DNA of 64,000 nucleotides from Pandoraea iniqua. GTDB lineage: Bacteria; Pseudomonadota; Gammaproteobacteria; Burkholderiales; Burkholderiaceae. The position numbers and the translations under genes are program-made. Shown here piece after piece: positions 46,623 to 64,000 of this stretch (positions are counted from its first letter, which is position 1; every line of letters starts with the position of its first letter). The stretch is taken from contig NZ_CABPSF010000002.1 of the NCBI RefSeq assembly GCF_902459685.1, positions 310,001 through 374,000 of the forward strand, given 5' to 3'. The notes below the pieces were generated by a model. That model was given only the letters and a program-made list of their open reading frames with translations, made no database searches and was not told the DNA's origin.

Positions 46623-46660
46623 TTCTCGTATACGAGAATTAAAATTCTCATATATGATAA
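46623..46660. promoter_or_regulatory. Paired operator palindromes for the XRE-cupin regulator
   Basis: A perfect 16-bp palindrome TTCTCGTATACGAGAA (46623-46638) is followed 22 bp later, start to start, by a degenerate copy TTCTCATATATGATAA (46645-46660). The two-turn spacing fits cooperative binding of two XRE dimers. Confidence 0.7.
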
Positions 46661-48490: not shown

Positions 48491-49948
48491 TCACACGAAC
48501 GGGTTTTCGACGCGTGGCCAGTAATTGAGGTCGCGGCGGCGGTACGGAATTGCCGCGAAGTCGGGCGTCAGTGCGCCCGGCGCCGCGACGTGAAAGATCG
48601 CCTTCGCCCGAGGCGCAAACTCGGCCTGAAAGTGCTGCGTTGACTTCACGATCACGAGCCGCTTGGCGTCCATGGCGATGCCTATGCCGGTAAACGCATC
48701 GACGCCCATGACTTGGGTTCGCACGGAAACGAGCACGATGTCCAACCCGTTCGGTCCTTCGACCCAAACCGAGCGGCCCAATGGCATCGACATTCCTTGG
48801 ATGCTTTGCGAATGTGTATCGTGCACGGCTCGGACGGTTACGCGCAGATCCACAGGGTCACCTGAAGTGACCCCGCATTTGCCGCCGATGCGAAGATCGA
48901 GCGTCGCACCGACGCCGGCATCGGCGCAGATTTGAATAGCGCCCAAATCCCAGAAGCAACCCAGCGCGACATCAGGGATACCGCGCTCGACGATTCGCCG
49001 AAGGACGAAGGTGCTATCCCCGGGGGCGCCGCCGCCGGGATTGTCAGCCACATCCGCCACGACCACCGGTCCAGCGCCCACGGCCAATGCCAAGTCGAGC
49101 CCGTGATTCAGGTCATGCCATTGGGGCTGAACCTCATGCCGCATCGCCCAGAATTCATCTCCGAGCTGACGCGCCAACGCACCGGCTTGGGTGGGGTCAC
49201 GGTCCGCAATCACCCAAAGCTTCGCGCCCGCCTCGGGAACATCGCCCCAGGGGAATCCGTGGCCGAGAGATACGGAGAGAATGCCGTCGCGTCCCTCGAA
49301 GGACTTCATGCGCCGCACAAAACCGGCCATCGGTTCCGACGTGGTATGCCATGCCCCGACCATGCGGCAATCGTGCACCGCTGTGACCGGGGTGACTTTC
49401 TCGTCGACCGCCTGCGTCACCAGCCGATAGACTTCGCGCAATCGGTCGATCGCATCGGTATGCGGATACTCCTTGTACGCGATGAGAATATTGGCTGCAC
49501 ACTGCATCAAATCGGTGAAATGACAATGCGGGTCGAGCGTCGCCGCGATCGGCACATCGGGGCCGACAACTTCACGAATGCACGCGAGGAGATCGCCTTC
49601 GCAGTCGTCGTGATGCTGCGCCACCATGGCACCGTGGAGCATGAGTACAACGGCATCGAGCGGCAGCGCTGCGCGTACGCCGGCGACGATCTCGTCGCGC
49701 AGCGTTTCGTAGACCTCTCGAATCACCGGGCCCGAAGGCTGCGCTTCTGCGCTGAGCCCTTCCGCGATTTCGTTTCCGTCCGACTCGGCGAGTCGTCGAA
49801 GTTCGGCCATCAGATAGCCCACGCTTTCCGGTGCGCGCAGGCTTGCGTCGCCCCGAAAGATCCCGAATTCTTGGAATCCGCCCCAGCCCGTGGGGCACGG
49901 CGCGAAGGTATTGGTTTCGGTCGATAGCTGTGCCGCGAATATCTTCAT
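48491..49948 (-). CDS. M81-family (MlrC-like) metallopeptidase
   Basis: The 485-residue protein has the M81/DUF1485 start KIFAAQLSTETNTFAP (about 2-17), the DPHCHFTD motif (about 150-157) and AYKEYPHTD (about 166-174), which carry likely zinc ligands. MlrC, the founding member, cleaves linear microcystin and short D-residue peptides in the cytoplasm; most family members are uncharacterised. No signal peptide is seen. It follows the histidine kinase gene by about 120 bases on the same strand, with a TGTATC-N6-GACACA repeat between them. Confidence 0.88.
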   Translation of the reverse strand: MKIFAAQLSTETNTFAPCPTGWGGFQEFGIFRGDASLRAPESVGYLMAELRRLAESDGNEIAEGLSAEAQPSGPVIREVYETLRDEIVAGVRAALPLDAVVLMLHGAMVAQHHDDCEGDLLACIREVVGPDVPIAATLDPHCHFTDLMQCAANILIAYKEYPHTDAIDRLREVYRLVTQAVDEKVTPVTAVHDCRMVGAWHTTSEPMAGFVRRMKSFEGRDGILSVSLGHGFPWGDVPEAGAKLWVIADRDPTQAGALARQLGDEFWAMRHEVQPQWHDLNHGLDLALAVGAGPVVVADVADNPGGGAPGDSTFVLRRIVERGIPDVALGCFWDLGAIQICADAGVGATLDLRIGGKCGVTSGDPVDLRVTVRAVHDTHSQSIQGMSMPLGRSVWVEGPNGLDIVLVSVRTQVMGVDAFTGIGIAMDAKRLVIVKSTQHFQAEFAPRAKAIFHVAAPGALTPDFAAIPYRRRDLNYWPRVENPFV

Positions 49949-50021
49949 TGCGAGTCCAGAGGTGTGATGGATGCCATGACACACACTCTATTGGGACCGC
50001 GTTGCCGGATTGTGAGCAATG

Positions 50022-50039
50022 TGTATCCACATTGACACA
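50022..50039. promoter_or_regulatory. 18-bp inverted repeat, copy 1 (upstream of M81 gene)
   Basis: TGTATC-CACATT-GACACA, one mismatch from a perfect 6-6-6 inverted repeat. It lies 74 bp before the M81 start and also contains AATGTG-TATC-CACATT. The same form recurs at 51223 and 62120. Confidence 0.6.
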
Positions 50040-50067
50040 GAAGCCACGGAAGGCGACTTTGCGAGCG

Positions 50068-51099
50068 CTATCGCCTCGGCAGCACAACGCGTGCGATCAG
50101 TCCGCCCTCTCTACCGTTGATCAGTGTCAACGATCCGGCGTGCCGCTTCACTACGTCGTGGGCAATGGCCAGCCCGAGCCCTGTACCGCCAGTGTCCCGG
50201 TTGCGGGATTGTTCGAGCCGAAAAAATGGCTCCAGCACCCGCTCCAGATCACGCTCCGGAATGCCCGGGCCACGATCGACGATATCTATCTGAACGGCGT
50301 CATGGCCGTCGATGAGTTCAATTCGAGCCTCGCCGCCGTAGCGGATAGCGTTCGCCACCAGATTGCTGAGACACCGTTTCAATGCTAGTGGCTGCGCAAG
50401 CAGCGGCGCGATGGCGCCATGCACAGAGACTTTCTGGCCACGCTCCATCGCGTCTTCCGCAATGGCGTCCACGAGCGCATCGATGTCGATGGGGCTGACT
50501 TCTTCGGTGACAGCTTCATTGCGCAGAAACGAGAGCGTTGCATCGAGCAGCTGCGTCATCTCATCGATATCGGCAACCAGTCGATCACTGAACTCCGAGG
50601 CGTCGAGCGCCCCAAGCCGAAGACGCATTCGCGTGAGCGGTGTGCGTAAGTCATGCGAGACGGCTGCGAGAAATCGATTGCGATCGTTCACCTGACGGCG
50701 TATCGCCGCCTGCATCGAGTTGAAAACACGAGCGGCCTGTCGCGCTTCGATGGGGCCGGCTTCCGGAATCGGTGGCGCGTCCATGTTGCGTGACAACTCT
50801 GCGGCGCCCGCAGCCAGCGACTTAAACGGTATCGACAGCATTCGCGCGCCGACCCAAGAGGAGACGAGCAGCGGAACGATCTGCACAGCGGTGGCGAGTG
50901 CCCACTGCTGCGTGTTTGACATGCCGGGCGGTGGTTTAAAAGCCGCTGCGGAGTACAGCGTGTACATCAGTGTCGCGGTACCGGTTTGTGTCAGGGCCAC
51001 CATGACGAGCATGACAAACAGCAACCGATAGAACGCAGAGTCGAACGATGGCTTTTGCATGGTGGTTGCGGCAGGTGCCGTGGAAGAGGACTCGAACAT
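50068..51099 (-). CDS. Sensor histidine kinase, orphan, short periplasmic loop
   Basis: The 343-residue protein has two membrane segments (about 25-50 and 66-88) with only about 15-20 residues between them, then HAMP-like (about 90-140) and HisKA domains with His149 (FLAAVSHDLRTPLTRMR). The ATPase shows NLVANAIRYG, DRGPGIPE and GTGLGLAIAHD. The short loop suggests sensing in or near the membrane. No response regulator gene is adjacent; the nearest is 11 kb away at 62275. The ATG at 51099 is preferred over a longer open frame. Divergent from the TonB-dependent receptor. Confidence 0.92.
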   Translation of the reverse strand: MFESSSTAPAATTMQKPSFDSAFYRLLFVMLVMVALTQTGTATLMYTLYSAAAFKPPPGMSNTQQWALATAVQIVPLLVSSWVGARMLSIPFKSLAAGAAELSRNMDAPPIPEAGPIEARQAARVFNSMQAAIRRQVNDRNRFLAAVSHDLRTPLTRMRLRLGALDASEFSDRLVADIDEMTQLLDATLSFLRNEAVTEEVSPIDIDALVDAIAEDAMERGQKVSVHGAIAPLLAQPLALKRCLSNLVANAIRYGGEARIELIDGHDAVQIDIVDRGPGIPERDLERVLEPFFRLEQSRNRDTGGTGLGLAIAHDVVKRHAGSLTLINGREGGLIARVVLPRR

Positions 51100-51222
51100 G
51101 CCGCCATTATCCCGCGCCCATGTAGCGGCTTCGTCAACAGATTGTTTCAGGACGGAAACATCCTCCGGTGCATACCTCACGTTCGACTTCCCGTGGATTC
51201 GGAAGCCGCGTTCACGTGGCTA

Positions 51223-51240
51223 TGTTTCACGGGCGATACA
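51223..51240. promoter_or_regulatory. 18-bp inverted repeat, copy 2 (kinase / receptor divergent promoter)
   Basis: TGTTTC-ACGGGC-GATACA lies in the 286-bp region between the histidine kinase and the TonB-dependent receptor, about 146 bp before the receptor start. One mismatch from a perfect inverted repeat. Confidence 0.65.
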
Positions 51241-51385
51241 AAGTCCACATGAACCAGAAATATCGCGCAAATAACGTCTATCCCGGAGCTAAGACTCGAA
51301 TCAGCGTGGACACACAACGCTAAACGAACCAAACCGCGAAGGCATTCGTGATGACCGAAGTGCGGAAATCCCGGAGGAGACGACA

Positions 51386-53752
51386 GTGGCAATCAGACAA
51401 CATCGCAGGCATACCGCAGTCACCTTGCACCGATTCAGGCTGCGTCCGCGCGGAGGAACCTGGTTGGTCGGTTCGCTGCTGGGGCTGGCGACGGCCTATG
51501 GACATGCGCAAACCGTAGCACCGCCCGGTGCGGCGTCGGCGGTGAGTGCCGACGCGGAGAGCGCTAACCCGGCACCGCAGACCAACGCAGGTCCGGGCAA
51601 TACCGCAGAAAGCGCAGAAACCAAGACCGCCGCTTCGGCGAAAGACGGCGCGACACTCAATACCGTGGTGGTGACTGCCACGCGCCGTCGCGAACCCGCG
51701 CGCGAAGTGCCGATGCAGATCAACGTCATTTCGGCGGACGAGTTGCAGAAGAGTGGCGCGAAGACGATGTCCGATTTTCTCGCGGGCGAACCTGGGGTGG
51801 ATCTCAACACACAAGGCGGAAGCGGTGCCGGACAGATCAGCATGCGCGGCGTGACGACCGGTGAACAAACCGGTCCCACCGTGGGTGTCTACGTCGATGA
51901 TGTCGCCTTCGGGGGGAGCACGCTCTTCTCGCAAGGCGCCACGTTTGCACTGGACATGAGCCTGCTGGATCTGAATCACATCGAAGTGCTGCGCGGGCCG
52001 CAGGGCACGCTCTACGGCGCAGGGGCGATGGGCGGGTTGTTGAAGTACGTTACGAACGAGCCGGATACCAACGAATTCTCCGGGCAGGCGAGCCTTGGCA
52101 TGTCGTCGACGAAGCACGGCGGCATTGGCAATACGGCCAGCGCGGTCCTGAATATTCCAATCAAGAACGACGTAGCCGCCGTGCGTGTGTCGGCGTTTAG
52201 CCAGCATGATGCCGGTTACATCGACGCCGTTGGCCCGCAGGCGGGGAGCCGCATCGACAGAGGTGATACGTACGGCGCGCGCGCGTCTTTGCTGTTGACA
52301 CCCACGAGTCAATTCACCGTGCGTCTGAGCGCGATCACGCAAAACATCAATCGCAACGCGCCCAATTACGTTGCCTACGACAAGAGTGGCCAGCCTGTCG
52401 ATGGCGACCTGACAACGCGCGTTTTTGCCCCGGAACCGTTCCATCAAAACGTTCAGCTCTACTCGCTCGGTCTGGAGTACGACTTCGGCTGGGCACGCCT
52501 GAACTCGATCACGTCGTATCAATCGGTCAAGACAGACCAGCCTCAGGATCTGTCGGTGGTCTACGTGCCGGCGCTCGCTGCGCAAGGGCTCAATTTGAAC
52601 TCGGTCGTCGCGGCAAACTTTGCGAAAACGAACAAGGTGACGCAAGAGTTTCGTCTGACATCGGCGGCGAACCAACGCCTCGAATGGTTAGGCGGGCTCT
52701 TCTTTACCCGAGAACGAAGTGAATCGGATCAAGGCATTCTCGCGGGATTCCCCAACGGGACGCAGGCCACCCTCTCTGGGCTGGTGGCACCGAGTACCTA
52801 CACCGAATACGCGGCGTATGGCGATTTGACGTACCACGTGACGCCACGTCTGGCACTCACGGGCGGCGTCAGAATTGCCCACAACCAGCAGAATTACGAT
52901 CAAACCACGTCGGGGCTTCTGGGTGGCCCGCCGCAATCGACTTCGTCGCCGTCGTCCGACACCAGTAAGACCTACATGCTGACGGCCAGCTATGGGTTAA
53001 CCGATAACAGCAACGTGTACGTTCGCGCGGCCAGCGGCTATCGTCCCGGTGGGCCGAACGCACAGCTCATCAGCCCGATCACAGGGCTTCCCGGCAATGG
53101 CAATCCAACGTTTCAGCCCGATACGCTTTGGACCTACGAGGCAGGCTACAAGGCCGACTTGTTCGACAAACGTCTCTCGTTTTCAGCCACGGTTTACGAC
53201 ATCGAGTGGAAAAACATTCAGCAGCTCGGTGCCGTGGACGGCGTCAATCAGGTGCTCAACGCGGGTAATGCACGCGTTAAAGGGTTTGAGCTGGCGAGCA
53301 GCTTCCGCCCTGATCGGCATTGGAGCTTTGGCCTGGGCTTTTCCTACATCGACGCCAAGCTGACGCAAGGCAACGCCGCAACTGGGACGCAATCGGGCGA
53401 CCCGCTGCCGAACTCGGCGAAGTTCTCGGCCACACTGACCGGGACCTACCACTTCTCGCTCGGGACGTACGCCTCGTACGTCGGCTTTAGCGAACGATTC
53501 GTCGGCCGTCGCCACTCTGGATTTAGCGGCAGCAGCGGCCGGCCGGATTACCCGCTGCCGGGTTATGCCGTGACCGACCTTCAGGCGGGCATCGACTTCG
53601 GCCGCGCCAGTCTGAACTTCTACGTGCGCAATCTGTTTGACCGCCGCGCGCTCCTGGCCGCAGGCACCGCACTGATGCCACTCGGCGGGCCGGCGCTGGT
53701 CAGCGTGGCACAGCCGCGCACTATCGGCGCTGTGCTCACCGTGCCGTTCTGA
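51386..53752 (+). CDS. TonB-dependent outer-membrane receptor
   Basis: The 788-residue protein starts at a GTG with GGAGGA 7 bases upstream. It has a signal peptide (about 1-41, ending YGHAQ) and a Pro/Ala-rich linker. A TonB box-like stretch LNTVVVTATRR (about 91-101) precedes the plug domain (VPMQINVISADELQ ... IEVLRGPQGTLYGAGAMGGLLKYVT, about 107-220). A 22-strand beta-barrel ends in VPF. It belongs to the broad TonB-receptor family used for siderophores, sugars and peptides. The next gene, an S12 peptidase, is 29 bases away, so the receptor and the peptidase are probably one operon. Confidence 0.95.
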   Translation: MAIRQHRRHTAVTLHRFRLRPRGGTWLVGSLLGLATAYGHAQTVAPPGAASAVSADAESANPAPQTNAGPGNTAESAETKTAASAKDGATLNTVVVTATRRREPAREVPMQINVISADELQKSGAKTMSDFLAGEPGVDLNTQGGSGAGQISMRGVTTGEQTGPTVGVYVDDVAFGGSTLFSQGATFALDMSLLDLNHIEVLRGPQGTLYGAGAMGGLLKYVTNEPDTNEFSGQASLGMSSTKHGGIGNTASAVLNIPIKNDVAAVRVSAFSQHDAGYIDAVGPQAGSRIDRGDTYGARASLLLTPTSQFTVRLSAITQNINRNAPNYVAYDKSGQPVDGDLTTRVFAPEPFHQNVQLYSLGLEYDFGWARLNSITSYQSVKTDQPQDLSVVYVPALAAQGLNLNSVVAANFAKTNKVTQEFRLTSAANQRLEWLGGLFFTRERSESDQGILAGFPNGTQATLSGLVAPSTYTEYAAYGDLTYHVTPRLALTGGVRIAHNQQNYDQTTSGLLGGPPQSTSSPSSDTSKTYMLTASYGLTDNSNVYVRAASGYRPGGPNAQLISPITGLPGNGNPTFQPDTLWTYEAGYKADLFDKRLSFSATVYDIEWKNIQQLGAVDGVNQVLNAGNARVKGFELASSFRPDRHWSFGLGFSYIDAKLTQGNAATGTQSGDPLPNSAKFSATLTGTYHFSLGTYASYVGFSERFVGRRHSGFSGSSGRPDYPLPGYAVTDLQAGIDFGRASLNFYVRNLFDRRALLAAGTALMPLGGPALVSVAQPRTIGAVLTVPF

Positions 53753-53781
53753 ATCCCATGACCGAATACCGGAGACTCTCA

Positions 53782-55416
53782 ATGACTTTGCAGCAGAAAG
53801 ACCTGCACGCTCGCCTTGATGCCCATCTGGCGAAGTTCAACCGAGGCGACGCGCCGGGGCTCGTGGTCGGTGTTGCCCATGAAGGGCGGGCACTGTACCG
53901 CAAGGGTTTTGGCATGACGAGCCTCGAACACAGCGTCGCGAACACTTCGGCGACCCGCATGCGGATCGGGTCGACCAGCAAACATTTCACGTGTCTTGCG
54001 GCGCTGCTGCTCGCAGAGGACGGAAAACTGGATATCGACGCGGGCGTGCGCACTTATATTCCCGAATTGCCGGAATTGAAGGGGGCGCCAACGCTGCGTC
54101 AGTTGATGACGCATACCGGAGGCTATCGATGCTATCTGGACTTGTCAGTGATGACGCAAGGCGTTGCCACGATCGGGCCGGGTGTACCGCTGGCGATCGA
54201 GCTTCGTCAGCAGGATGTTAATTTCCCGCCGGGCGAGCGCATGATCTATTGCAACGGGGGATATCACCTCCTGTCGCAGGTCATTGCGCGCGTCAGCGGC
54301 ATGTCGTTCGAACGGTTTCTCAAGCAGCGGATTTTCCGCGTGATGGGCATGAACGACACGGAATCCGTCAGTGACGATTTGCGGATCAGGCCACGCATGG
54401 CCACACAGCATGTTCCTGACGGCGATGGCGGGTATTTGCGCGGACTGTTTCCGAGTGTCGATGTACTGGGGGAGGGCGGTATCGTCTCCACGATCGACGA
54501 TATGCTGAAGTGGGCCGGACATCTTCGTCATCCCACCAAGCTGGGTAGTCCCGAGACGTGGCGTGAGATGCTGACGATGCCTCGGTATTCGAGCGGAGAA
54601 CTCGGTGTCTACGCGCTGGGCCTGATACGCACCCGATATCGTAACGTCGAAACCATTCATCATGCGGGCGGCGTTTTTGGTGGATGCAGTCAGATGTTGA
54701 CGGTTCCCGCACATGCTCTGGATATTGTGCTGATGAGCAACGGCGCCCCAGTCGATCCCGTCGCGCTGGCGACCGAGATTGTCGATATCGTCCTTGGCGA
54801 TGACGTCCTCGGTCCGCCGCGGCAAGGGCCGGCACAGACGTCGGACAATCCCGGTTTGCGCGGGAAATATCTTTCCGTCGACCCGCTTCAGTGGGTGGAA
54901 ATCATCGAGCGGGACGACGGTTGGTACGCAACGACACATAATCAGACACACCTTCCGCAACCACTCATCGCGGCTGAGCTCGGATACCGGATCGACGATG
55001 GTGCGGGTGCGCAGACTCGTGTGGTGCCGCATGTGCGTACGCCGGCAGGCGACGTTTCAGCCATCGATGTCATCGAGAGCGGGCATGCCGTGACTCTGCG
55101 CCGATACGACATTGTCCTGCCGGATGAGGCGTTGGAAATGGACGGAATCTGTGGTCGATACTTTAGCCACGATGCCGACGCCCACGCCGTCGTCTCAATC
55201 GAGGACGGGATGTTGACGCTGGCCATTCGCGGCGCTACGGGAAGTGTGCGCTATCGCCTGAGTGCGATAACCCGCGATGTCTGGACCTTCGCGCCTGCAG
55301 ATGCTTCAGCACTCTCGACGGGCACGGCACGGGTGGAGCGCAACGCAGACAAGGCCATCCGCTTTTCGCTCTCCACATCCCGCACGCGGGGGCTGGCGTT
55401 CTCTCGTATTGACTGA
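53782..55416 (+). CDS. S12-family D-aminopeptidase-like serine hydrolase (copy A)
   Basis: The 544-residue protein has a penicillin-binding fold with Ser64-x2-Lys67 (GSTSKHFTC), Tyr156-x-Asn158 (YCNGGY) and His294-x-Gly296 (HHAGG). These are the three catalytic motifs in the same positions as Ochrobactrum D-aminopeptidase DAP (S62/Y153/H287). The last ~200 residues fit its two beta-barrel domains. There is no signal peptide, so it acts in the cytoplasm, probably removing N-terminal D-residues. The ATG at 53782 has GGAG 7 bases upstream; 53758 is an alternative. Confidence 0.9.
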   Translation: MTLQQKDLHARLDAHLAKFNRGDAPGLVVGVAHEGRALYRKGFGMTSLEHSVANTSATRMRIGSTSKHFTCLAALLLAEDGKLDIDAGVRTYIPELPELKGAPTLRQLMTHTGGYRCYLDLSVMTQGVATIGPGVPLAIELRQQDVNFPPGERMIYCNGGYHLLSQVIARVSGMSFERFLKQRIFRVMGMNDTESVSDDLRIRPRMATQHVPDGDGGYLRGLFPSVDVLGEGGIVSTIDDMLKWAGHLRHPTKLGSPETWREMLTMPRYSSGELGVYALGLIRTRYRNVETIHHAGGVFGGCSQMLTVPAHALDIVLMSNGAPVDPVALATEIVDIVLGDDVLGPPRQGPAQTSDNPGLRGKYLSVDPLQWVEIIERDDGWYATTHNQTHLPQPLIAAELGYRIDDGAGAQTRVVPHVRTPAGDVSAIDVIESGHAVTLRRYDIVLPDEALEMDGICGRYFSHDADAHAVVSIEDGMLTLAIRGATGSVRYRLSAITRDVWTFAPADASALSTGTARVERNADKAIRFSLSTSRTRGLAFSRID

Positions 55417-55427
55417 CGTTGGGGGAC

Positions 55428-55466
55428 GGTGGGAACTGAGAACAACTGTGAACGTCGGTTCCCACC
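55428..55466. terminator. Hairpin between the two convergent S12 genes
   Basis: A 9-bp perfect stem (GGTGGGAAC/GTTCCCACC) with a 21-base loop lies between the stops of the two converging genes. No T-run is seen, so termination is inferred. Confidence 0.45.
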
Positions 55467-55501
55467 TCTGCGATGCGTTCTGCGGTATCTGCCGTGTCCG
55501 C

Positions 55502-57184
55502 TCAAGACTTGGCAAATCGAAGGTTTCGAGTGCGGTTGGTGTTGACGGAAAATCCCTCGACACGTCCCGTGCCGGGGTGCCTCACGATGGAAAGCGTTCC
55601 CGTTCTGACGGCATTCGGGGCGCGGGGCGAGAAGCGAAAAAGATCGACGTCGACTGGAAAGATGTCGTAGTGGCATTCGCCCGCGCGTCCCACTATCTCG
55701 AGCGACATAATCGCGCAAACGTCGTCACGCGATTCATCTCCCAACACCGAAGGGCGCAGCGTAGCGCGAGCATCGGCTTCTTCGCTGGCATAGGCGCCAC
55801 TTAGCGAATCGATAACTTCGACGCTTACCGACGCCGATACCTCGACGCGCCGATAGATTGCCGTGTGGCCGCAATGAGAGATGCGCAAAGCCTCGGCATC
55901 ATCCGGATTGACGGCGCTTCCCCACTGAAGCAGAAAGGTGCCGTCGCCACTCGATTCCAAGGAAAACTCGCACGTGCCAGTTTCGGCGCGATCGTACGGA
56001 TAGAGCATTGGGTTGCTCGGTTCAAGCGGCCCGCTAAGCGTCATGTCTCCGGCGCGATCGGCGATGTCGTACACCATGTCGTTGTTCACCTCGCGATAGG
56101 TCCCCGCGCGTCCGGGCCAGCGGCCCGTGCTGGCGGGCGTTGGAACGGCGTAGCACTCCATCGGGGCCGCCAACAGAATGTCGAGCATGCGAAGCGAAAA
56201 CGCGGCCGGAGCTGGGATTGCCCCATTGCCAAGCAACACGATATCGATGCCGTGCTCGGGGACGCAGAGCATCTGGCACGATCCGCCCACGACACCGCCC
56301 GCATGCTGGATCAGTTCGCATCCGCGATATTGCGAGCGCCTTAAGCCCATCATGTAATCGCTGCGTAGACCACTGGAGAAGATGGGCGAAGAGAACATCA
56401 GGTCCCATGTGTCGGGATTTCCTATGCGTTTTTCGCCACGCAAATGCGAACACCATTTCAGCATGTCGTCCACGCACGAGACGACACCGCCTTCACCGAG
56501 AATTTCTCGCGAAGGAAATATCCCCCGATCGTAAGTACCCTCGCCGTTTTGGACATGGCAGGCGGCCATATGGCTGCGGATTCGATAGTCGTCGGGCAGG
56601 AGAAACGTATCGTTCATGCCCAATGGGTCAAAGACTTCGGCGGCGAGAAACGCCGCAAAGGGTTGTGCACTGACACGCTCGATGGCCAGCGAAATCAGGT
56701 GATATCCGCCGTTGCAATACATCATCCGCTCGCCCGTGGGAAAGTTGACACTAGTTTGCCGGCGCATGATGTCGAGCAGGTAGCCGGTCTGCGGCACCGC
56801 CAACCCGTTAGTAAGGAGCGATACGTCGAGCGCGCACCGTTGCCCACTTGTGTGGAACATGAACGCGCGTAATGGCGCGTCGCCGGCTACCCCGGTCAGT
56901 TCCGGTAAATAGCGGCGTACCGGCACATCGATATCCAGCGCTTTCGCTTCCCGGAGCAGCAAGGCCGCGAGGCAAGTCATGTGCTTGCTCGTCGATCCGA
57001 TACGCAGCAGGGTCCGCACATTCAAACCCAGTCCCAGGCCAACGTCCGCCATACCGAAGGCCTCGCGCAACACGACCTCGCCGTCAATGGCGGCGGCGGC
57101 GACGACGCCCGGTGAATCGCTTCGGTTGAACGGATCAAACAGCGCCTTCAGAGCGGTACCGTCAAATTGTTCCTGTGCCGACAC
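55502..57184 (-). CDS. S12-family D-aminopeptidase-like serine hydrolase (copy B)
   Basis: A 560-residue paralogue of the 53782 product with identical motifs at the same positions: Ser64-x2-Lys67 (GSTSKHMTC), YCNGGY and QHAGG. The start GTG at 57184 gives a 6-base spacing to AGGAGG and the same numbering as copy A; the ATG at 57190 abuts the ribosome site. The epimerase gene ends 15 bases upstream, so it is the last gene of the tonB-exbBD-MFS-epimerase unit. It lacks a signal peptide. The two copies differ strongly outside the core, suggesting different peptide preferences. Confidence 0.9.
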   Translation of the reverse strand: MSAQEQFDGTALKALFDPFNRSDSPGVVAAAAIDGEVVLREAFGMADVGLGLGLNVRTLLRIGSTSKHMTCLAALLLREAKALDIDVPVRRYLPELTGVAGDAPLRAFMFHTSGQRCALDVSLLTNGLAVPQTGYLLDIMRRQTSVNFPTGERMMYCNGGYHLISLAIERVSAQPFAAFLAAEVFDPLGMNDTFLLPDDYRIRSHMAACHVQNGEGTYDRGIFPSREILGEGGVVSCVDDMLKWCSHLRGEKRIGNPDTWDLMFSSPIFSSGLRSDYMMGLRRSQYRGCELIQHAGGVVGGSCQMLCVPEHGIDIVLLGNGAIPAPAAFSLRMLDILLAAPMECYAVPTPASTGRWPGRAGTYREVNNDMVYDIADRAGDMTLSGPLEPSNPMLYPYDRAETGTCEFSLESSGDGTFLLQWGSAVNPDDAEALRISHCGHTAIYRRVEVSASVSVEVIDSLSGAYASEEADARATLRPSVLGDESRDDVCAIMSLEIVGRAGECHYDIFPVDVDLFRFSPRAPNAVRTGTLSIVRHPGTGRVEGFSVNTNRTRNLRFAKS

Positions 57185-57199
57185 GGCCATCCTCCTGGA

Positions 57200-58216
57200 T
57201 CAATGCATCTCATACGGGGCGTCATCGCGACCCCAGACGCTCTCGGGGCCTTGCAGATATCCGTTTAGGTATTGGAACGAGGGCGCGCGATCCTCAGCCA
57301 GGAAGCAGGGCCCGTCGAGGTCTACCCGGTCGCACTGCTGCCCCAGAATGTAGGCCGGGGCCACACCGAGCGATGTGCAGGGCATACATCCGACCATGAC
57401 CGACAGTCCGAGCTCTCGAATCGGCGCGACCAGCGAGAGTGCACGTGTGAGGCCGCCGCACTTATCGAGCTTGACGTTGACGACGTCGTACCGGCGGGCG
57501 ACCGTGGCGAGATCGTCCAGATCCTGAAACGATTCGTCTGCCGCCAGGCGGATCGGATATCGCATGGATTCAAGGCACTCATCCTCGCCTGCCGGCAGGG
57601 GTTGTTCGAGCAGGTCGACGCCAACGTGCTGCATGACCGGCAGCATGCGAACCATGTGTTCTTGCGTCCACCCTTGATTAGCGTCGACGGAAAGCGCAGC
57701 GCCAGGGCAAGCCGCGCGAATCGCGACAAGTCGATCTACGTCGGTTGCGCTGCCGTCGAGCTTGATCTTCAACGCAACGGCGCCCTCGAAGCCACGCGCC
57801 GCCTCGGCCATGGCGGGTGCGGCATCAACACCGACGGTGAATGACGTCCGTAGTGGGCGCAGCCGGGCGCGTCCGGCCAGTCGTGCGACCGTCATGCCAC
57901 AGCGCTGAGCGGCCAATGACCATAGCGCCGCGTCGAGGGCGTTTCTCGCACCGCCGGCAGGCAGCAACCCGATGAGGGCCTCGCGGGATATGCCTCGCTC
58001 GATCAGCGGGCGTACGGCGGCAATCTGCTCGGCCATGCCCTCAGGCGTTTCTCCACGGTAGTAGACGCCGGCGGCCTCTCCTCGTCCTCTGTGTTGCCCG
58101 GATCGCAACGAGACAACCAGGACGCGGGCCGCGTCGACCGTGTGGCCCGAGATGTGAAAGGGGGTGGCCAGCGGCCACTGTTCGATACGAACGGAAAGCT
58201 TGCAGGGAATGGTCAT
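57200..58216 (-). CDS. Dipeptide (L-Ala-D/L-Glu-type) epimerase, enolase superfamily
   Basis: The 338-residue muconate-lactonising-type protein has the acid-base pair Lys150-x-Lys152 and Lys249 (VNVKLDK), metal ligands Asp178, Glu204 and Asp227, and the Asp299-x-Asp301 (DLDGP) motif. That last motif is the mark of dipeptide epimerases such as YcjG/YkfB, which turn L-Ala-D-Glu into L-Ala-L-Glu during muropeptide recycling. Substrate side-chain preference varies within the family. It starts 6 bases after the MFS stop and is part of the D-peptide operon. Confidence 0.9.
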   Translation of the reverse strand: MTIPCKLSVRIEQWPLATPFHISGHTVDAARVLVVSLRSGQHRGRGEAAGVYYRGETPEGMAEQIAAVRPLIERGISREALIGLLPAGGARNALDAALWSLAAQRCGMTVARLAGRARLRPLRTSFTVGVDAAPAMAEAARGFEGAVALKIKLDGSATDVDRLVAIRAACPGAALSVDANQGWTQEHMVRMLPVMQHVGVDLLEQPLPAGEDECLESMRYPIRLAADESFQDLDDLATVARRYDVVNVKLDKCGGLTRALSLVAPIRELGLSVMVGCMPCTSLGVAPAYILGQQCDRVDLDGPCFLAEDRAPSFQYLNGYLQGPESVWGRDDAPYEMH

Positions 58217-58222
58217 TGGCGC

Positions 58223-59614
58223 TCAGGCGTAGCGTTCGATGGCAAGACGTACGGCATTGGCCGCACCGCGCATTAAGAGGCAGGCCACGATGAATCCGGG
58301 CAACGCCACGGCAACGATGGCCCATATGAGACCGGACTCGGTGCGATGCAAGTGATCCGACATCAGGCCAATGGCCACAGGACTGCCGGACTGCATCAGC
58401 ACCGTCGTCAGCACACCGATGGCCGCTACTCTCGACCTTAGATAAGGCGGGCAAATGCTCTGCATCAGTCCCGGAAACATGATCATGCCTGCCACAACGC
58501 ACATGAATTGAGCGCCGAACAGGACGTAGACATAGGACACGGATGGTGCGATCAGATACCCGAGGCTGACGACGCATGCCCCCAGGGCCCCCCACTCACA
58601 TACGCGTAGCGGGGCGAGCACGCCGAGTCGCGAACTCAGGCGGCGAGCGAGCAGCCAACCGAGCGCGCATCCGAAGACGCTACCTGTCATCGCCGCGCTG
58701 CCGAGTCCGGCACCGGCCGTTGCAGGCGTTGCACCAAAGAAGCGGACGGCGACGACCGGCATCCAGGTGGTGATACCGGCAAAGGCCATGTTGATCAGCG
58801 CGATGGCACCGAAAAAGCGAATCATCATCGGCATCTCCCGGCGAAAGTATTCACCCGCGGCGAGCCCAGGCACCGGCACGTTGCCGGTCGAGCGCTGAGT
58901 GTCCGAATGGGCATAGCGGGGCCGGATCATCGCGACAATCAATACCAGCAGCGGCGCGGGGATCGCGACGGCAAAGAATGCAATCCGCCATGTGGACGCG
59001 TTTCCCAGACCGAAGGGCAATACGCCATGCATGGTGTCGATCCCCTGGATGAGTAACCCGCCCAGTGCCATGCCCGCGCCCGCGCTGAGAAGATTGACCA
59101 GTGCGAAGACCGAGTTGGCGAGGATGCGCTGGCGCGCCGGAAACAGGTCGGGGAGCAAGCCGTAGATGATAGGCATGAGGCCTGCTTCGCCGATGCCCAG
59201 GCCGATCGATGCGATGAAGAGCGTCCAGAATCCGGTCGCGAAACCGCAGGCGGCGGTCGCGGCGCTCCAGAGCAGGATGCAGAGTACCAGCACGGCACGA
59301 CGATCCACGCGGTCTGCGAGCCATCCGATCGGAATGGCTGCCGCACCTGCAAATAGCGCAATGCCGGCGCCTTGCAAAAGCCCCACCTGAATATCGGCGA
59401 GGCCGAACTCGGTGCGAATGAGTTCGGCCAATAGCACCAGCATCTGACGATCGACGTTGGCGAAAAACGTCACGAGGACGAGGGCGAGAAGTCCGAGCCA
59501 CGCCCCGATCCCCGCATATCGCTCGCGGCTTGACGTTGGTGCATACCGCGGCCTTTCGGTATTCGAATCGAACATTTGAAGTCCAGTATTGAGTGCGTCA
59601 GCGCGTGAGGACAT
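58223..59614 (-). CDS. MFS transporter of the D-peptide locus
   Basis: The 463-residue protein has 12 membrane segments and an MFS loop (GWLADRVDRRAVLVL, about 98-112). It resembles metabolite symporters of the spinster/ACS border group (FFANVDRQMLVLLAELIRTEFGL). It sits between exbD and the dipeptide epimerase, so it probably carries the imported peptide or its products across the inner membrane, the step MlrD is proposed to do in microcystin users. GGAG lies 6 bases before the ATG. Confidence 0.88.
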   Translation of the reverse strand: MSSRADALNTGLQMFDSNTERPRYAPTSSRERYAGIGAWLGLLALVLVTFFANVDRQMLVLLAELIRTEFGLADIQVGLLQGAGIALFAGAAAIPIGWLADRVDRRAVLVLCILLWSAATAACGFATGFWTLFIASIGLGIGEAGLMPIIYGLLPDLFPARQRILANSVFALVNLLSAGAGMALGGLLIQGIDTMHGVLPFGLGNASTWRIAFFAVAIPAPLLVLIVAMIRPRYAHSDTQRSTGNVPVPGLAAGEYFRREMPMMIRFFGAIALINMAFAGITTWMPVVAVRFFGATPATAGAGLGSAAMTGSVFGCALGWLLARRLSSRLGVLAPLRVCEWGALGACVVSLGYLIAPSVSYVYVLFGAQFMCVVAGMIMFPGLMQSICPPYLRSRVAAIGVLTTVLMQSGSPVAIGLMSDHLHRTESGLIWAIVAVALPGFIVACLLMRGAANAVRLAIERYA

Positions 59615-59632
59615 CGGCGCTCCGACGTGATG

Positions 59633-60061
59633 TCATTGCGCGAAGCGCTCGTTGCCGACCAGCCCGATGCGCGTCACCCCTAGCCGCTGCGCCGACGCCA
59701 TGACCATGGCGACCGACCGATAGGGTGCCGTCGCGTCGGCGCGAAGGTGAAGCTCAGTTGGCGGTGTGGACGATGCGGCTTCGGCAAGGTGGGTCTCCAA
59801 TTGCGCGCGGTCGCTAAGCGGCAAGCCGTTCCATGCCACGACTCCGCTCGCATCGACGTCGACTTGCACGACGAGCGGAGGCGTCGGCGGTGAGGCATTG
59901 GAAGGGGTGGGCATGTCGAGTTTCACGGCATGCGTCTGAATCGGGATGGTGAGAATCAGCATGATCAGCAGCACCAACATGACGTCGATGAGCGGCGTCG
60001 TGTTGATCTCCACCATGATGTCGCCGTTTTCGTCAGCGCCCGATGGCATGGTCATTGCCAT
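59633..60061 (-). CDS. exbD: ExbD-family proton-channel subunit (second copy)
   Basis: The 142-residue protein has a single N-terminal membrane helix beginning INTTPLIDVMLVLLIML with the essential Asp26, and a periplasmic domain that differs from copy one. AGGAGA precedes the ATG by 6 bases. Two ExbD genes behind one ExbB occur in several proteobacterial TonB systems; the second may tune substrate specificity. Confidence 0.92.
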   Translation of the reverse strand: MAMTMPSGADENGDIMVEINTTPLIDVMLVLLIMLILTIPIQTHAVKLDMPTPSNASPPTPPLVVQVDVDASGVVAWNGLPLSDRAQLETHLAEAASSTPPTELHLRADATAPYRSVAMVMASAQRLGVTRIGLVGNERFAQ

Positions 60062-60092
60062 GGAAGTCTCCTGATGTAGGGCGTCTCGCGCG

Positions 60093-60527
60093 CTATTGGC
60101 GCGGCGGCGCTTCGGTGATGAAGTCGACTTTGGCGATGCCCGCACGCTGGCATGCCAGGACCACCCGTCCGATCGCGGCGTAGCGAGCGTCGAGATCGCC
60201 GCGAATATGCACTTCGGGTTGGGGCGTCAATACAGCGACCGTCTTGAGTTTGTCCAGCAACGTTGCGGCGTCGGGAATACGTCGCTCGTCCCAATACACC
60301 TCGCCGTCGCCTGTCACGGCAAGAACAACGTTCTGCGGTGTGGTCTGCAAGGGTTGAACGGCTTCCTTCGGAAGCGTGACGGGGACGGTGTGCGAGACCA
60401 CGGGAATCGTGATCAGGAAGATGATGAGCAACACCAGCATGACGTCGACCAGCGGCGTCGTGTTGATGGTCGCCATGACCTCGTCGTGCTCTGCGCCACC
60501 GCTCCCGCCAGACAGGGATATCGCCAT
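60093..60527 (-). CDS. exbD: ExbD-family proton-channel subunit (first copy)
   Basis: The 144-residue protein has a membrane helix INTTPLVDVMLVLLIIFLIT with the essential Asp28, and a periplasmic domain ending DFITEAPPRQ. It follows exbB by 4 bases. It should form the proton channel with ExbB and energise TonB. Confidence 0.93.
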   Translation of the reverse strand: MAISLSGGSGGAEHDEVMATINTTPLVDVMLVLLIIFLITIPVVSHTVPVTLPKEAVQPLQTTPQNVVLAVTGDGEVYWDERRIPDAATLLDKLKTVAVLTPQPEVHIRGDLDARYAAIGRVVLACQRAGIAKVDFITEAPPRQ

Positions 60528-60531
60528 GGCA

Positions 60532-61353
60532 TCACCCCACGCGCGCGACTTGAGACGACCGGGTCGCCACGATGGCCGACGCCGTCGTTTTACCGGTGAG
60601 CAGCACGTTGTGTATTTCGCTGCCGAAATCGCGCACACGCTCCATGACCGCTTTGTTGCGACGGACAAGCCAGTTGTATCCGAGCACGGCGGGAACGGCG
60701 ACCGCCAGACCGATTGCCGTCATGATCAACGCTTCTCCCACGGGGCCCGCGACCTTGTCGATGGAGGCTTGGCCCGCAATGCCGATTGCGGTGAGCGCGT
60801 GATAAATGCCCCAGACGGTGCCGAAAAGGCCAACGAAAGGCGCTGTCGAACCGACCGTGCCCAAGAACGAAAGCCCATCCTGAAGGCGATTCGATACGCC
60901 GGTCATCGCACGCTCGATGGCGCTCGCGACCCAAGTATTCAAATCGACCTGATCGAGCAGTGCGCCGTTGTGATGATCACGGGCAGACAGCGCGGATTCC
61001 GCAATGTATCGAAACGGGCTTCCCGCATCGAGCGACCGGACGCCTTCGGAAAGCGACGCGGCATTCCAGAACGTCTTTTCCGCGGCACGGGCACGACGCA
61101 GGACCTTGGCCTGTTCGAGCAGTTTGGCGACGATGATGTACCAGCTCCCCATGGACATGATCACGAGGATGAGCAGGGTCCCGCGAGCGATCATATCGCC
61201 GCCCTCCCATAGCGCTTGCAGCCCGTAAGGGTTGGTTACGGTCGATGCTGCGTGTGCGCTCAACGAGGCGAACGCCGCGATCGTCGATACGACTGCCATG
61301 GGCGCCATAAGGCGGCGCTTACGGGGCATGGCACGATACTGGAACTGAAGCAT
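60532..61353 (-). CDS. exbB: ExbB-family proton-channel subunit
   Basis: The 273-residue protein has an N-terminal signal-like hydrophobic stretch (about 12-36), seen in long ExbB proteins, and three further membrane segments of the MotA/TolQ/ExbB fold. These include LGTVGSTAPFVGLFGTVWGI, the family signature. CAAGGAGA precedes the ATG. It starts the proton channel of the dedicated TonB complex; tonB is 49 bases upstream. Confidence 0.93.
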   Translation of the reverse strand: MLQFQYRAMPRKRRLMAPMAVVSTIAAFASLSAHAASTVTNPYGLQALWEGGDMIARGTLLILVIMSMGSWYIIVAKLLEQAKVLRRARAAEKTFWNAASLSEGVRSLDAGSPFRYIAESALSARDHHNGALLDQVDLNTWVASAIERAMTGVSNRLQDGLSFLGTVGSTAPFVGLFGTVWGIYHALTAIGIAGQASIDKVAGPVGEALIMTAIGLAVAVPAVLGYNWLVRRNKAVMERVRDFGSEIHNVLLTGKTTASAIVATRSSQVARVG

Positions 61354-61402
61354 GGTCGTCTCCTTGACGTGAGTTCCGAGGGGGGGGCGGTTGAAGACCG
61401 CC

Positions 61403-62041
61403 TCAATTGAGTTGAAAATCGAACGGCACCTGGACGCGGACTTCCTGGCCTTGCGCGACGCACTGAAATTGCCGCACCGCGCTCTCCGCGGCTCGGTCCA
61501 GCACGGGGGCTGCCGATCGGGCGACACGAAGTTGTTTGACTTGCCCGTCGGTGCCAACAACGAACTCGACGAGTACGCTGCCGGTGATGTTGTCGCGCAG
61601 CGCTTCACGCGGGTATCGGATGGCGGCACGGACTTGCGCGGAGTTTGGGCAAACGACGCCGACGTTGCCTGCCACGGGTTTGCTCTCGAGAGGCGCCGGT
61701 GGGGCGACCGGTGTCGTGGGGACGGGCTTGTCGGTCTGCACGGCCACGGCATTGGGTTGCGGGGTGGCTTGTACCTGAACTTCGGGCGGCGGTACGTAAG
61801 CCTTGGGCTGAACGACGGGGCGCGGCGCCGGGGCGATCTTCTTTACCGGAGGTGGCGGCGGAGGCGGGGGCGGCGGTTTGATTTCTTCGATGATTCGCGT
61901 CTCGATGGGCGCCTGAATGATCGTCGCAACACGCGTTGCGAGCCCGCTAAGCAAGGCATACAGAATCAGGGCGTGCAGCAGCAGTGCCACGCCGATGCCG
62001 AGCAGCCGCCGAGCGGGTGGTTTGGGCTGAGCGTAATTCAT
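61403..62041 (-). CDS. tonB: TonB energy transducer
   Basis: The 212-residue protein has one N-terminal membrane helix (about 13-35), a ten-proline run followed by a Pro/Lys-rich periplasmic spacer (about 50-110), and a C-terminal TonB domain (AAIRYPREALRDNITGSVLVEFVVGTDG, about 140-170). It is shorter than housekeeping TonB and lies in an operon with exbB and two exbD, so it most likely serves the receptor at 51386. Confidence 0.92.
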   Translation of the reverse strand: MNYAQPKPPARRLLGIGVALLLHALILYALLSGLATRVATIIQAPIETRIIEEIKPPPPPPPPPPVKKIAPAPRPVVQPKAYVPPPEVQVQATPQPNAVAVQTDKPVPTTPVAPPAPLESKPVAGNVGVVCPNSAQVRAAIRYPREALRDNITGSVLVEFVVGTDGQVKQLRVARSAAPVLDRAAESAVRQFQCVAQGQEVRVQVPFDFQLN

Positions 62042-62119
62042 GGACTACGTGTCTCCTACCTGCATAGGTCTTGTGTGGAGTCACGTTACGGCGCGGGTAT
62101 TTCTGTTTCATCTCGACTT

Positions 62120-62137
62120 TGTATCGGGTTTGATACA
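62120..62137. promoter_or_regulatory. 18-bp inverted repeat, copy 3 (tonB / response regulator divergent promoter)
   Basis: A perfect TGTATC-GGGTTT-GATACA lies 79 bp before tonB and 138 bp before the response regulator. An extra TGTTTC half-site at 62104-62109 lies 16 bp upstream of it. It matches the sites at 50022 and 51223. Confidence 0.7.
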
Positions 62138-62274
62138 TAGCCGAAGCGATGCGATCGCGTCGAATGTTTCAGGACTGCAACAAAGCCGCAAGATTGCCGG
62201 CACGTTTGTCGCCGATAATCCGGAACTTGGGGACACTGAATCGACGCGGCGGTGGATGAGAAGAGGAAAAAACC

Positions 62275-62994
62275 ATGGCAACGCACGTACTTGTAGTCGA
62301 TGACGATGCGCAGATAAGGACTCTGCTCTGTGATTGTCTTGCCGGTTTTGGCATGACCTGTATGCAGGCGGCCAGTGGGGAGGAGATGCACGACGTGCTC
62401 GAGCACAACGATATCGACATCGTCGTGCTCGACCTGATGCTTCCCGACAGCGACGGCCTGACGTTATGCCGGGAATTGCGTACCTCGTCGGAAATTCCCA
62501 TTGTGATGCTCACCGCGCGTGGCGAGATGACCGACAGAATTGTCGGTCTGGAACTCGGTGCGGACGATTACGTCGTGAAGCCTTTTGAACCGCGAGAGCT
62601 GGTGGCGAGAATTCAGACGATTCTTCGCCGCACCCGTGCGCAGGCGCGGGCGATACCCGAACCCAAGGACGAGCGGAAGTTCGCGGGATGGCGTCTGAGC
62701 TTGATCGGTCGCCATCTGATTGCGCCCGATAACACGGTTATTCCGCTTTCGAACGCGGAATTTCGACTGCTGAACGCCTTTCTTTCCGCGCCGGGGCGGG
62801 TGCTAAGCCGTGAGTACTTGATGGATACGGCCCGAGGGAAATCCATCGATGCGTTTGATCGCAGCATCGACGTACAGATATCGAGGCTGCGGCATAAATT
62901 ACGAGAGGACATCAAGGAACCACGGTTACTGCGGACGATTCGTGGAGAAGGCTACATGCTCGACGTTCGCGCGCGATCCGATGTCGAAGGCTAG
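62275..62994 (+). CDS. OmpR-family response regulator, orphan
   Basis: The 239-residue protein has a receiver domain with Asp9-Asp10, phospho-acceptor Asp53 (VVLDLMLPDSDG), the switch Thr in MLTARGE and Lys in DYVVKPF. An OmpR/PhoB winged helix follows (about 135-235, ending LLRTIRGEGYMLDV). AGAGGA precedes the ATG. No kinase gene is adjacent; the only kinase in the window is at 50068. Divergent from tonB, with the 18-bp repeat between. Confidence 0.94.
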   Translation: MATHVLVVDDDAQIRTLLCDCLAGFGMTCMQAASGEEMHDVLEHNDIDIVVLDLMLPDSDGLTLCRELRTSSEIPIVMLTARGEMTDRIVGLELGADDYVVKPFEPRELVARIQTILRRTRAQARAIPEPKDERKFAGWRLSLIGRHLIAPDNTVIPLSNAEFRLLNAFLSAPGRVLSREYLMDTARGKSIDAFDRSIDVQISRLRHKLREDIKEPRLLRTIRGEGYMLDVRARSDVEG

Positions 62995-63021
62995 GTGTCG
63001 GCGGGTCTGGCCCGTACAGGG

Positions 63022-64000
63022 CTACACCGCCAACGCCGCCCCATCGCTGCGCGGGTCATGCGCACCACTCGCGAGACCGTCTTCCGCAATAGCGATCACC
63101 CCGGCCTGACCCGCCAGCGGACTATGCTTCGGCAATGACGCAATCGCATGCCCGCGTGCCGCGAGTGCTGCGAACACCGCTTCCCCTGCGTCGCTCTCAA
63201 GCTTGAGGTTGTCCCGGCTGTCGGAGAACGTCCGGCCCAGCAGAAAGCGCGGATGGGATAACGCTTCGTGTGGCGACATCCCGTAATCGATCAATCGGGT
63301 AAGCAGTGCGCTCAGCGTTTGTGGCTGTCCATCCGCCCCCTGTGTCCCATACAGCAATCGCGCTCGCCCATCTTTCAGATACATACCGGGATTGAGCGTG
63401 TGAAAGGGCCGCTTGCCGGGCATAAGCGCATTCGGATGCGCACTGCCCGCCGGGCGAAACGCCGCGCCCCGGTTGTGCCACAGCACCCCCGTGTCGCCTG
63501 CCATCACGCCGCTGCCCCAATCGAAGTAGATCGTCTGCAACACGCTCACCGCGCGCCCGGCCGAGTCCGTCGCCGCGAAGTACACCGTGTCGCCTTCGCG
63601 AAAACGATGCGGCCAGTCGAGTGCCACCCGATCATCGATGCGTGACGCTGCGGCGCGAAGATGTCCGTCCGACAACATCGTCGCGACGGGAACATCCACG
63701 AATTCCGGGTCCGCGATGTACCGGTCGCGATCGATAAACGCCTGCTTCACCGCCTCCACGAGCCGGTGGTAATACGTCGCGCTGCCGTGAGCACAATCTT
63801 TCAGCCCCAAGCGCGCGAGAATCCCCATGATTTGTAGCGTCGTCACCCCTTGCGTCGGCGGCGGCAATGTCGCCAACACACCGTCGCCATACGGCATCGT
63901 CAATGCGTCTGACACGTGCACACGCGTGGCCGCAAGATCCTCGCGCGTGAGCGGCGAACCCGCCGCCTGCAAGCCGTCTGCCAGAAGGGCGGCCAACGCG
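63022..64000 (-). CDS. Gamma-glutamyltransferase-family protein, C-terminal part (cut by window end)
   Basis: About 325 residues are visible; the 5' end lies beyond 64000. Family marks are TLPPPTQGVTTLQI, the self-cleavage/nucleophile Thr of GDTVYFAATDSAGRAVS (aligned with the TTHYS Thr of E. coli GGT), GSGVMAGDTGVLWHNRG and RPFHTLNPGM. This is the GGT-like branch common in soil bacteria, which hydrolyses gamma-glutamyl bonds of glutathione, poly-gamma-glutamate or cyclic imides. It converges on the response regulator 27 bases away. Confidence 0.88.
   Translation of the reverse strand, partial: ALAALLADGLQAAGSPLTREDLAATRVHVSDALTMPYGDGVLATLPPPTQGVTTLQIMGILARLGLKDCAHGSATYYHRLVEAVKQAFIDRDRYIADPEFVDVPVATMLSDGHLRAAASRIDDRVALDWPHRFREGDTVYFAATDSAGRAVSVLQTIYFDWGSGVMAGDTGVLWHNRGAAFRPAGSAHPNALMPGKRPFHTLNPGMYLKDGRARLLYGTQGADGQPQTLSALLTRLIDYGMSPHEALSHPRFLLGRTFSDSRDNLKLESDAGEAVFAALAARGHAIASLPKHSPLAGQAGVIAIAEDGLASGAHDPRSDGAALAV

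Follow-up and report, generated by a model that had tools for sequence, protein, structure and literature searches.

A co-inherited TonB-dependent uptake-plus-hydrolysis locus in Pandoraea iniqua, probably serving the use of peptides with D-residues

We analysed a stretch of 64,000 nucleotides from Pandoraea iniqua (bases 310001-374000 of contig NZ_CABPSF010000002.1; genome size 6.34 Mb), called the window here, and describe in it a locus at about 45.9-63.0 kb. It is, with near certainty, one dedicated TonB-dependent uptake-plus-hydrolysis unit: its genes are co-inherited, and one private operator is common to its main promoters. Across the block the gene order is XRE-cupin regulator, RidA, DAO-like enzyme, M81 metallopeptidase-family protein, sensor kinase, TonB-dependent receptor (TBDR), two S12 hydrolases (S12a and S12b), dipeptide epimerase, MFS transporter, ExbD-ExbD-ExbB-TonB and response regulator. 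We regard it as fairly probable that the locus is an inducible peptide-utilisation unit for D-residue peptides, which are probably nonribosomal products of neighbouring microbes. The protein families are all known, but no description of an assembly with this make-up was found in the literature searched, most subscription journals lying outside the search; a table row of PMC6090828 names a dipeptide epimerase. A preliminary description of the window had proposed a self-contained route for a D- or gamma-linked peptide. Its dedicated TonB uptake and hydrolysis unit is borne out, and the enzyme set fits D-residues by family knowledge, whereas the parts concerning a GGT-family gene and muropeptides do not hold.

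The first evidence for the unit is that its genes travel together. When S12a was searched in 61 genomes, 32 of them Pandoraea, strong relatives (best E 8e-128 or lower) were found in 12 of the 32, the window genome included. In a separate scan of named genomes, the best match to S12a was that of Pandoraea sp. PE-S2T-3 (99%). Stretches of 36-38 kb around S12 were compared from the other 11 Pandoraea, and 10 of the 12 (the window and nine others) have the block in one conserved order. The genes flanking the block vary among species. Pandoraea bronchicola (G009; handles with G, C and L denote our genomes, contigs and loci or stretches) has a compact, diverged version in which the kinase and response regulator are adjacent, an arrangement suggesting that these genes, far apart in the window, are partners. 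The epimerase was found at E <= 1e-30 in 11 of the 32 Pandoraea, namely the S12 genomes minus Pandoraea horticolens (G006), and always beside S12 (hypergeometric P = 9e-8, assuming independent genomes, which related genomes are not). The order conserved in nine other Pandoraea, together with an operator whose exact form occurs only here in the genome, places the arrangement beyond chance.

On a wider scale, one scan of named genomes with an S12 alignment gave 71 loci from Burkholderiales, Xanthomonadales/Lysobacterales, Solimonas, Nitrospirillum/Azospirillum, a sphingomonad and others. The loci were cut at 10-kb flanks or contig ends, so that the following counts are lower bounds, and some loci share a contig or a genome, so that the counts are not independent. 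By tblastn, M81 was found in at least 60 loci, TBDR in 55, MFS in 43, the epimerase (DgcA) in 33, XRE-cupin in 25, ExbB in 17 and DAO in 13; clustering of reading frames gave 59 for M81, 55 for TBDR, 38 for MFS and 30 for the epimerase. Further recurring clusters, named by their representatives, are M17 and S15 peptidases, RidA, FecR, MFS_2, an ABC ATPase, aldehyde dehydrogenase, a PF00756 esterase and an alpha/beta hydrolase. In an even sampling of the order, S12 at E <= 1e-60 occurs in 5 of 399 genomes, the window's own included, and the class of locus is therefore patchy. Whether the genes travel together was the check proposed in the preliminary description; they do, in Pandoraea and in these wider loci, the GGT gene excepted.

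Family assignments were made with Pfam and NCBIfam scans of the window proteins, and every family named earlier was found again. The TonB receptor, the TonB-ExbB-ExbD-ExbD set, the MFS transporter, the two S12 enzymes, M81, the epimerase and the GGT gene all lie at or very near the positions first given for them. The gene set of the interval 48491-64000 proposed at that time is thus real, but its edges differ from ours: RidA had been missed, and the DAO-like and XRE-cupin genes had been left outside although they travel with the set. The features of the locus are as follows.

45904-46563, minus strand: XRE-cupin transcriptional regulator (Pfam HTH_3 and Cupin_2); accompanies the block in 8 of 9 other Pandoraea with this gene order
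46623-46638: perfect 16-bp palindrome TTCTCGTATACGAGAA, likely operator of the XRE-cupin regulator; kept in nine aligned Pandoraea promoters, window included
46744-47097, plus strand: RidA (imine/enamine deaminase family), 117 aa (PF01042, 90.5 bits)
47099-48331, plus strand: DAO/DadA-like FAD enzyme, candidate D-amino-acid oxidase or dehydrogenase (PF01266, 201 bits)
48491-49984, minus strand: M81 metallopeptidase-family protein (PF07364, PF07171)
50022-50039: operator copy with one mismatch, in the M81-kinase gap; other genera have one at this place too
50068-51180, minus strand: EnvZ-like sensor histidine kinase (HisKA, HATPase_c); the annotated GTG probably lies upstream of the true start
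51143-51160: operator copy, exact TGTTTC-N6-GAAACA (pattern search)
51223-51240: operator copy, exact TGTTTC-N6-GATACA (pattern search)
51386-53752, plus strand: TonB-dependent outer-membrane receptor (PF00593, PF07715)
53758-55416, plus strand: S12a, D-aminopeptidase-like serine hydrolase without evident export signal (PF00144; PRK13128, 147.9 bits; motifs)
55502-57190, minus strand: S12b, paralogue of S12a (41%; family match, motifs)
57200-58216, minus strand: enolase-superfamily (MR_MLE) dipeptide epimerase, DgcA-like; catalytic residues intact, presumed Glu-binding Arg replaced
58223-59614, minus strand: MFS transporter, candidate inner-membrane peptide importer (PF07690)
59633-60145, minus strand: ExbD 1 (PF02472)
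60093-60668, minus strand: ExbD 2 (PF02472); true start probably near 60530
60532-61353, minus strand: ExbB (PF01618, MotA_ExbB, within the open reading frame 60532-61752); start estimated from sequence
61403-62041, minus strand: TonB (PF03544, TonB_C)
62120-62137: operator copy, exact TGTATC-N6-GATACA (pattern search)
62165-62182: operator copy with one mismatch (pattern search)
62275-62994, plus strand: OmpR-family response regulator (PF00072, PF00486)

The spacing suggests the operons TBDR-S12a (5 bp), kinase-M81 (83 bp) and RidA-DAO (1 bp, behind the palindrome at 46623-46638), with the response regulator alone. A TonB-ExbB-ExbD-ExbD-MFS-DgcA-S12b operon is suggested by gaps of 6-18 bp from ExbD 1 to S12b and by overlapping listed frames upstream.

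The second evidence is the operator. The aligned promoters of ten Pandoraea contain conserved stretches, and in the window a 26-base stretch recurs in the kinase/TBDR and TonB/regulator promoters (23 of 26 identical; maximum 20 among 500 dinucleotide-shuffled pairs) and runs into the inverted repeat TGTWTC-N6-GAWACA. With at most one mismatch, this repeat has five sites in the window, at 50022, 51143, 51223, 62120 and 62165 (shuffles: mean 0.20, maximum 2), and the exact form has three copies in the 6.3-Mb genome, all inside the locus. An exact operator also lies between kinase and TBDR in all 16 kinase-holding loci (Pandoraea 6, Ralstonia and unclassified Burkholderiaceae 3, Burkholderia and Paraburkholderia 7), and in 13 of the 16 the interval between M81 and kinase also holds a site with no more than one mismatch; P. 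bronchicola has an exact operator at the TonB end as well. In the 1.38 Mb of the 71 loci there are 55 sites with at most one mismatch. Among the 54 listed, 53 are at these promoters, some of them falling inside over-long stop-to-stop frames, and one (L113) is elsewhere. The palindrome of the RidA-DAO promoter, which faces the XRE-cupin gene, is a different conserved sequence.

A working scheme for the unit can be proposed from these families. The kinase would sense the peptide or a fragment of it, and the response regulator would act at TGTWTC-N6-GAWACA and switch on the TBDR-S12a, TonB-ExbB-ExbD-ExbD-MFS-DgcA-S12b and kinase-M81 operons. The receptor, powered by its own TonB-ExbB-ExbD-ExbD, would carry the peptide to the periplasm, and the MFS transporter would then take it to the cytoplasm. 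There S12a and S12b, as D-aminopeptidases, may cut next to D-residues, M81 may cut a bond that ordinary peptidases leave, and the epimerase may convert X-D-Y into X-L-Y dipeptides, which housekeeping dipeptidases would finish. RidA and the DAO-like enzyme, under XRE-cupin control, could convert the released D-amino acids to keto acids and ammonia. The D-residue substrate is suggested by family logic, that is by the two S12 enzymes, the dipeptide-epimerase fold, the DAO-like enzyme (best NCBIfam model a D-amino acid dehydrogenase subfamily, 144.8 bits against a cut-off of 383) and RidA. In its working such a unit would resemble the TonB-dependent polysaccharide utilisation loci, where receptor, transporter, enzymes and sensor-regulator also form one locus; here, however, peptide enzymes replace glycosidases and there is a dedicated TonB-ExbB-ExbD-ExbD.

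The S12 enzymes have intact catalytic motifs, S72xxK, Y164-C-N-G and H302-x-G in S12a and S66, Y158 and H296 in S12b, and both carry STSK, YCNG and HAGG. The preliminary description had credited them with the exact motif spacing of D-aminopeptidase. The motifs SxxK, YxN and HxG are indeed present, but the spacing is close rather than exact: the S-Y and S-H distances are 92/230 in both enzymes, 94/230 in MlrB of the microcystin pathway and 91/225 in D-aminopeptidase 1ei5 (from alignment). Against the D-aminopeptidase model (NF009622), residues 13-530 of S12a align with 6-496 of 518, near full length, and the scores are 147.9 bits for S12a and 112.9 for S12b, below the equivalog cut-off of 443; MlrB itself scores 137.5. 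S12a and S12b are thus like the Ochrobactrum D-aminopeptidase (1ei5) in the YCNG motif and, for S12a, in near-full-length collinearity with the family model, and differ from it in being two divergent paralogues below the equivalog cut-off and part of an uptake unit. Both are probably cytoplasmic, as neither has an evident export signal, whereas the start of MlrB is hydrophobic; by a crude signal-peptide check, the hydropathy maximum is 0.98 in S12a, 1.76 in S12b (inside the domain), 2.12 near the start of MlrB and 1.65 in the exported receptor.

The strongest of the alternatives is siderophore or haem acquisition, in which a ferric peptide siderophore would enter through the receptor and be stripped of its iron by the hydrolases; we consider it unlikely. 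The best models of the receptor are siderophore and haem receptors, though below their cut-offs (TIGR01783, 165.5 against 223.5), its match to the pesticin receptor 4epa is 118 bits, and P. horticolens (L088) has a PF00756 esterase beside its version. On the other side, the locus has a dedicated operator and a two-component pair, and iron release would hardly need an epimerase, RidA and DAO. The best Fur-like site in eight promoter stretches (two promoters in 4 of the 10 aligned genomes) matched 9-11 of 19 positions, which is not above mononucleotide shuffles, in a scan without a positive control; on this result Fur control was set aside.

Second comes muropeptide scavenging, in which the unit imports peptidoglycan fragments and degrades L-Ala-D-Glu peptides while GGT acts on gamma bonds. 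D-aminopeptidases act on D-Ala peptides, and the nearest PDB relative of the epimerase is E. coli YcjG (1jpd, 233 bits). As in the muropeptide-recycling epimerases YcjG and YkfB, the enolase fold and the residues KxK, D, E, D, KxD and DLDGP are present; the catalytic and metal residues kept are LKIK149, DANQ178, EQPL204, ADES226, KLDK249 and DLDGP299, the last confirming the Asp-x-Asp signature first noted for this protein. However, the window epimerase is set in a TonB uptake unit, and ARGSR of YcjG corresponds to SGHTV in it, so that the presumed glutamate-binding Arg is replaced. In YcjG this Arg presumably holds the glutamate side chain of the substrate. At its position the window protein has Gly, as do all 15 other usable alignment rows that come from Pandoraea, Ralstonia, Burkholderia and Paraburkholderia loci; in this alignment L049 yielded no row and L072 lacked its N-terminus. 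The score on the L-Ala-D/L-Glu epimerase model is 263.3 bits against a cut-off of 343, and GGT is excluded from the locus, as shown below. Muropeptides, or L-Ala-D-Glu peptides as first suggested, are accordingly an unlikely substrate, Arg being lost, and this scavenging route is decidedly doubtful. A Thermotoga relative acts on L-Ala-D/L-Phe, Tyr and His according to a passage of PMC5808125, which makes a preference for residues other than Glu plausible in the window epimerase.

The Arg position is an imperfect guide to glutamate. The DgcA model gives the window epimerase 364.4 bits against a cut-off of 400, and 7 of the 71 related loci (L079, L082, L094, L098, L101, L105 and L107) carry DgcN-cluster genes together with DgcA, both being points of likeness to the DgcN-DgcA pathway for D-glutamate. 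Among the six aligned epimerase rows from these loci, four keep the Arg, L094 has it one position on and L098 is without it; some rows without DgcN also keep it. The one cluster member tested (L101) is DUF1611 with 452.9 bits against a DgcN cut-off of 480. Some relatives with DgcN-cluster genes may thus handle D-Glu, as their gene content suggests. For the window genome the pathway was rejected: DgcN (DUF1611, PF07755) gave no match there, the control matching in 4 of 14 genomes, and the epimerase stays below the DgcA cut-off.

D-residue peptides are often antimicrobial, and S12 belongs to the class C beta-lactamase superfamily. S12 could then protect the cell from a beta-lactam or an antimicrobial peptide that is not food. 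We hold such detoxification to be very unlikely, since class C models, among the best 25 families, score far below their cut-offs and active uptake with a dedicated energy supply would be odd for a detoxifying unit.

The locus can also be compared with mlrABCD of Sphingopyxis and relatives, where an S12, an M81 and an MFS-superfamily transporter also stand side by side and the peptide has unusual residues (passages of PMC12474180 and PMC11070527). A genuine mlr locus in a sphingomonad genome, L144 (G613:C30:425000-444999), served for comparison; it has an MlrC of 1172 bits, a Rce1-like MlrA, an MlrD of the POT family and an MlrB of 541 aa with the published catalytic residues S77, K80, Y171, N173, D245 and H307, which we took from a passage of PMC11070527. 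The window M81 is 36% identical to this MlrC and 45-53% identical to several M81 from other searches, and scores 329.5 bits on the MlrC model NF041767 (cut-off 999); the window genome has another M81 gene at a different place. In an M81 tree of 84 sequences, kept from 180 candidate frames, 67 tips are from S12 loci (window included), 46 of them in the clade of the window M81 and 21 outside. This clade (47 tips, support 0.838) contains only M81s from S12 loci and, as a duplicate tip (L147), the window's own gene, while MlrC falls outside it among M81s from other searches, the genomic context having been checked for a minority of these tips. The window M81 is thus rejected as an MlrC orthologue, and the close tie to MlrC in the preliminary description is not upheld. 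The unit further differs from mlrABCD in its own receptor, TonB-ExbB-ExbD-ExbD and two-component system, and in its epimerase, RidA and DAO. A microcystin-type pathway, with S12 as MlrB, M81 as MlrC and MFS as MlrD, is the least likely of the alternatives because MlrA is absent (searches of the window genome at E <= 0.001 and of the 71 related loci and 12 regions at 1e-5 were without a match), and although the S12 and M81 families are shared and L144 continues on its right flank with an MFS and a TonB-dependent receptor, themselves a possible microcystin uptake route, the M81 is in another clade, MlrD gave no BLAST match to the window MFS, and MlrB is described as periplasmic in passages of PMC12474180 and PMC11070527 while the window S12 enzymes are without evident signal by the crude measure.

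Several observations weigh against our own interpretation of a D-peptide unit, besides the siderophore-like scores of the receptor. S12b aligns with the D-aminopeptidase model over 22-391 on 18-377 of 518 only, i.e. the first three quarters, and with scores so far below cut-off S12a and S12b could be esterases or cut something else. In Pandoraea eparura (G028), one of the nine with the ordered block, the match to DAO is split into three pieces (joined coordinates 23547-24617, L031-L032) and no XRE-cupin gene was found, the remaining block being kept. In P. horticolens the set is looser, with M81 and the receptor each present twice and the epimerase missing. RidA-DAO is under a different operator, and the two genes may be neighbours with another job; on a Comamonas plasmid, RidA, an FAD enzyme, XRE and M81 are grouped with no S12 in the stretch seen. 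M81 genes also occur in unrelated contexts. For the operator, the pattern was derived from the same promoters and then searched, so that finding these again is unsurprising, and of the 20 sites with at most one mismatch in the genome, 5 are in the locus while the 15 outside are of the order of chance (reversed-pattern control 10). The informative points are that exact copies are nowhere else in the genome and that the pattern is kept in other genera.

The GGT gene, counted as part of the locus in the preliminary description, belongs to a neighbouring ABC operon. It extends from 63022 past the window edge, convergent to the response regulator; the complete gene (L002:1023-2663) overlaps at its start with the stop of the LIV-type ABC gene before it (L002:2660/2663). 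It adjoins the block in 4 of the 10 Pandoraea that keep the block order and in 2 of the 71 wider loci, both Pandoraea, and a genome-wide pattern search found no operator sites with at most one mismatch near its operon. As it neither travels with the block nor shares its control, we rejected it as a member. A sphingomonad locus outside the 71 (L146, G491) has a GGT-like gene (25%) beside TBDR, S12 and M81, which speaks against this exclusion. The GGT gene and the LIV-type ABC operon, with a GntR regulator and, further on, an Asp/Glu racemase, make up a separate uptake operon next door (L002:1023-12577). Beside LivK lies a 388-aa frame without a Pfam match (L002:7564-8730, minus strand), which has matches in three other Pandoraea and in L091. 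No known structured RNA reached the gathering score in 44-64 kb. A genomic island at tRNA-Ser was considered and rejected, no integrase being among the nine proteins scanned between 32.9 and 43.4 kb.

Loci with S12, M81, MFS, TBDR and epimerase also stand at three places in Roseateles toxinivorans DSM 16998, which we take to be strain 2C20, and a fourth S12 place there is without M81. Microcystins, anabaenopeptins and other peptides are broken down by this organism, which PMC8068134 describes as lacking mlr, with its genes not identified as of 2021. On its contig C16 (G433) we found a distant MlrA homologue (L163:15073-16035, minus strand; 38%, 203 bits, with EELGWRG, HFPRE and THNIGNE) about 9.5 kb from an M81 gene (L163:4093-5550, plus strand). 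A wider idea, which is speculative and to which we give a small chance, is that the S12-M81-TBDR-MFS-epimerase loci form an undescribed, widespread class for D-peptide utilisation, in which receptor and epimerase fit each locus to a nonribosomal peptide of its own, and that the R. toxinivorans loci and the distant MlrA homologue would be the 'mlr-independent' route for microcystins and other cyanopeptides.

The locus is a bounded unit for study, with 14 genes plus RidA and one private operator, and the R. toxinivorans loci are a concrete candidate list for the microcystin pathway of that organism. Substrate preference could be inferred from sequence by means of the epimerase and S12 subtypes that occur in many genera. 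If the substrate is as we propose, the unit would bear on how Gram-negative bacteria use D-residue peptides that resist ordinary peptidases.

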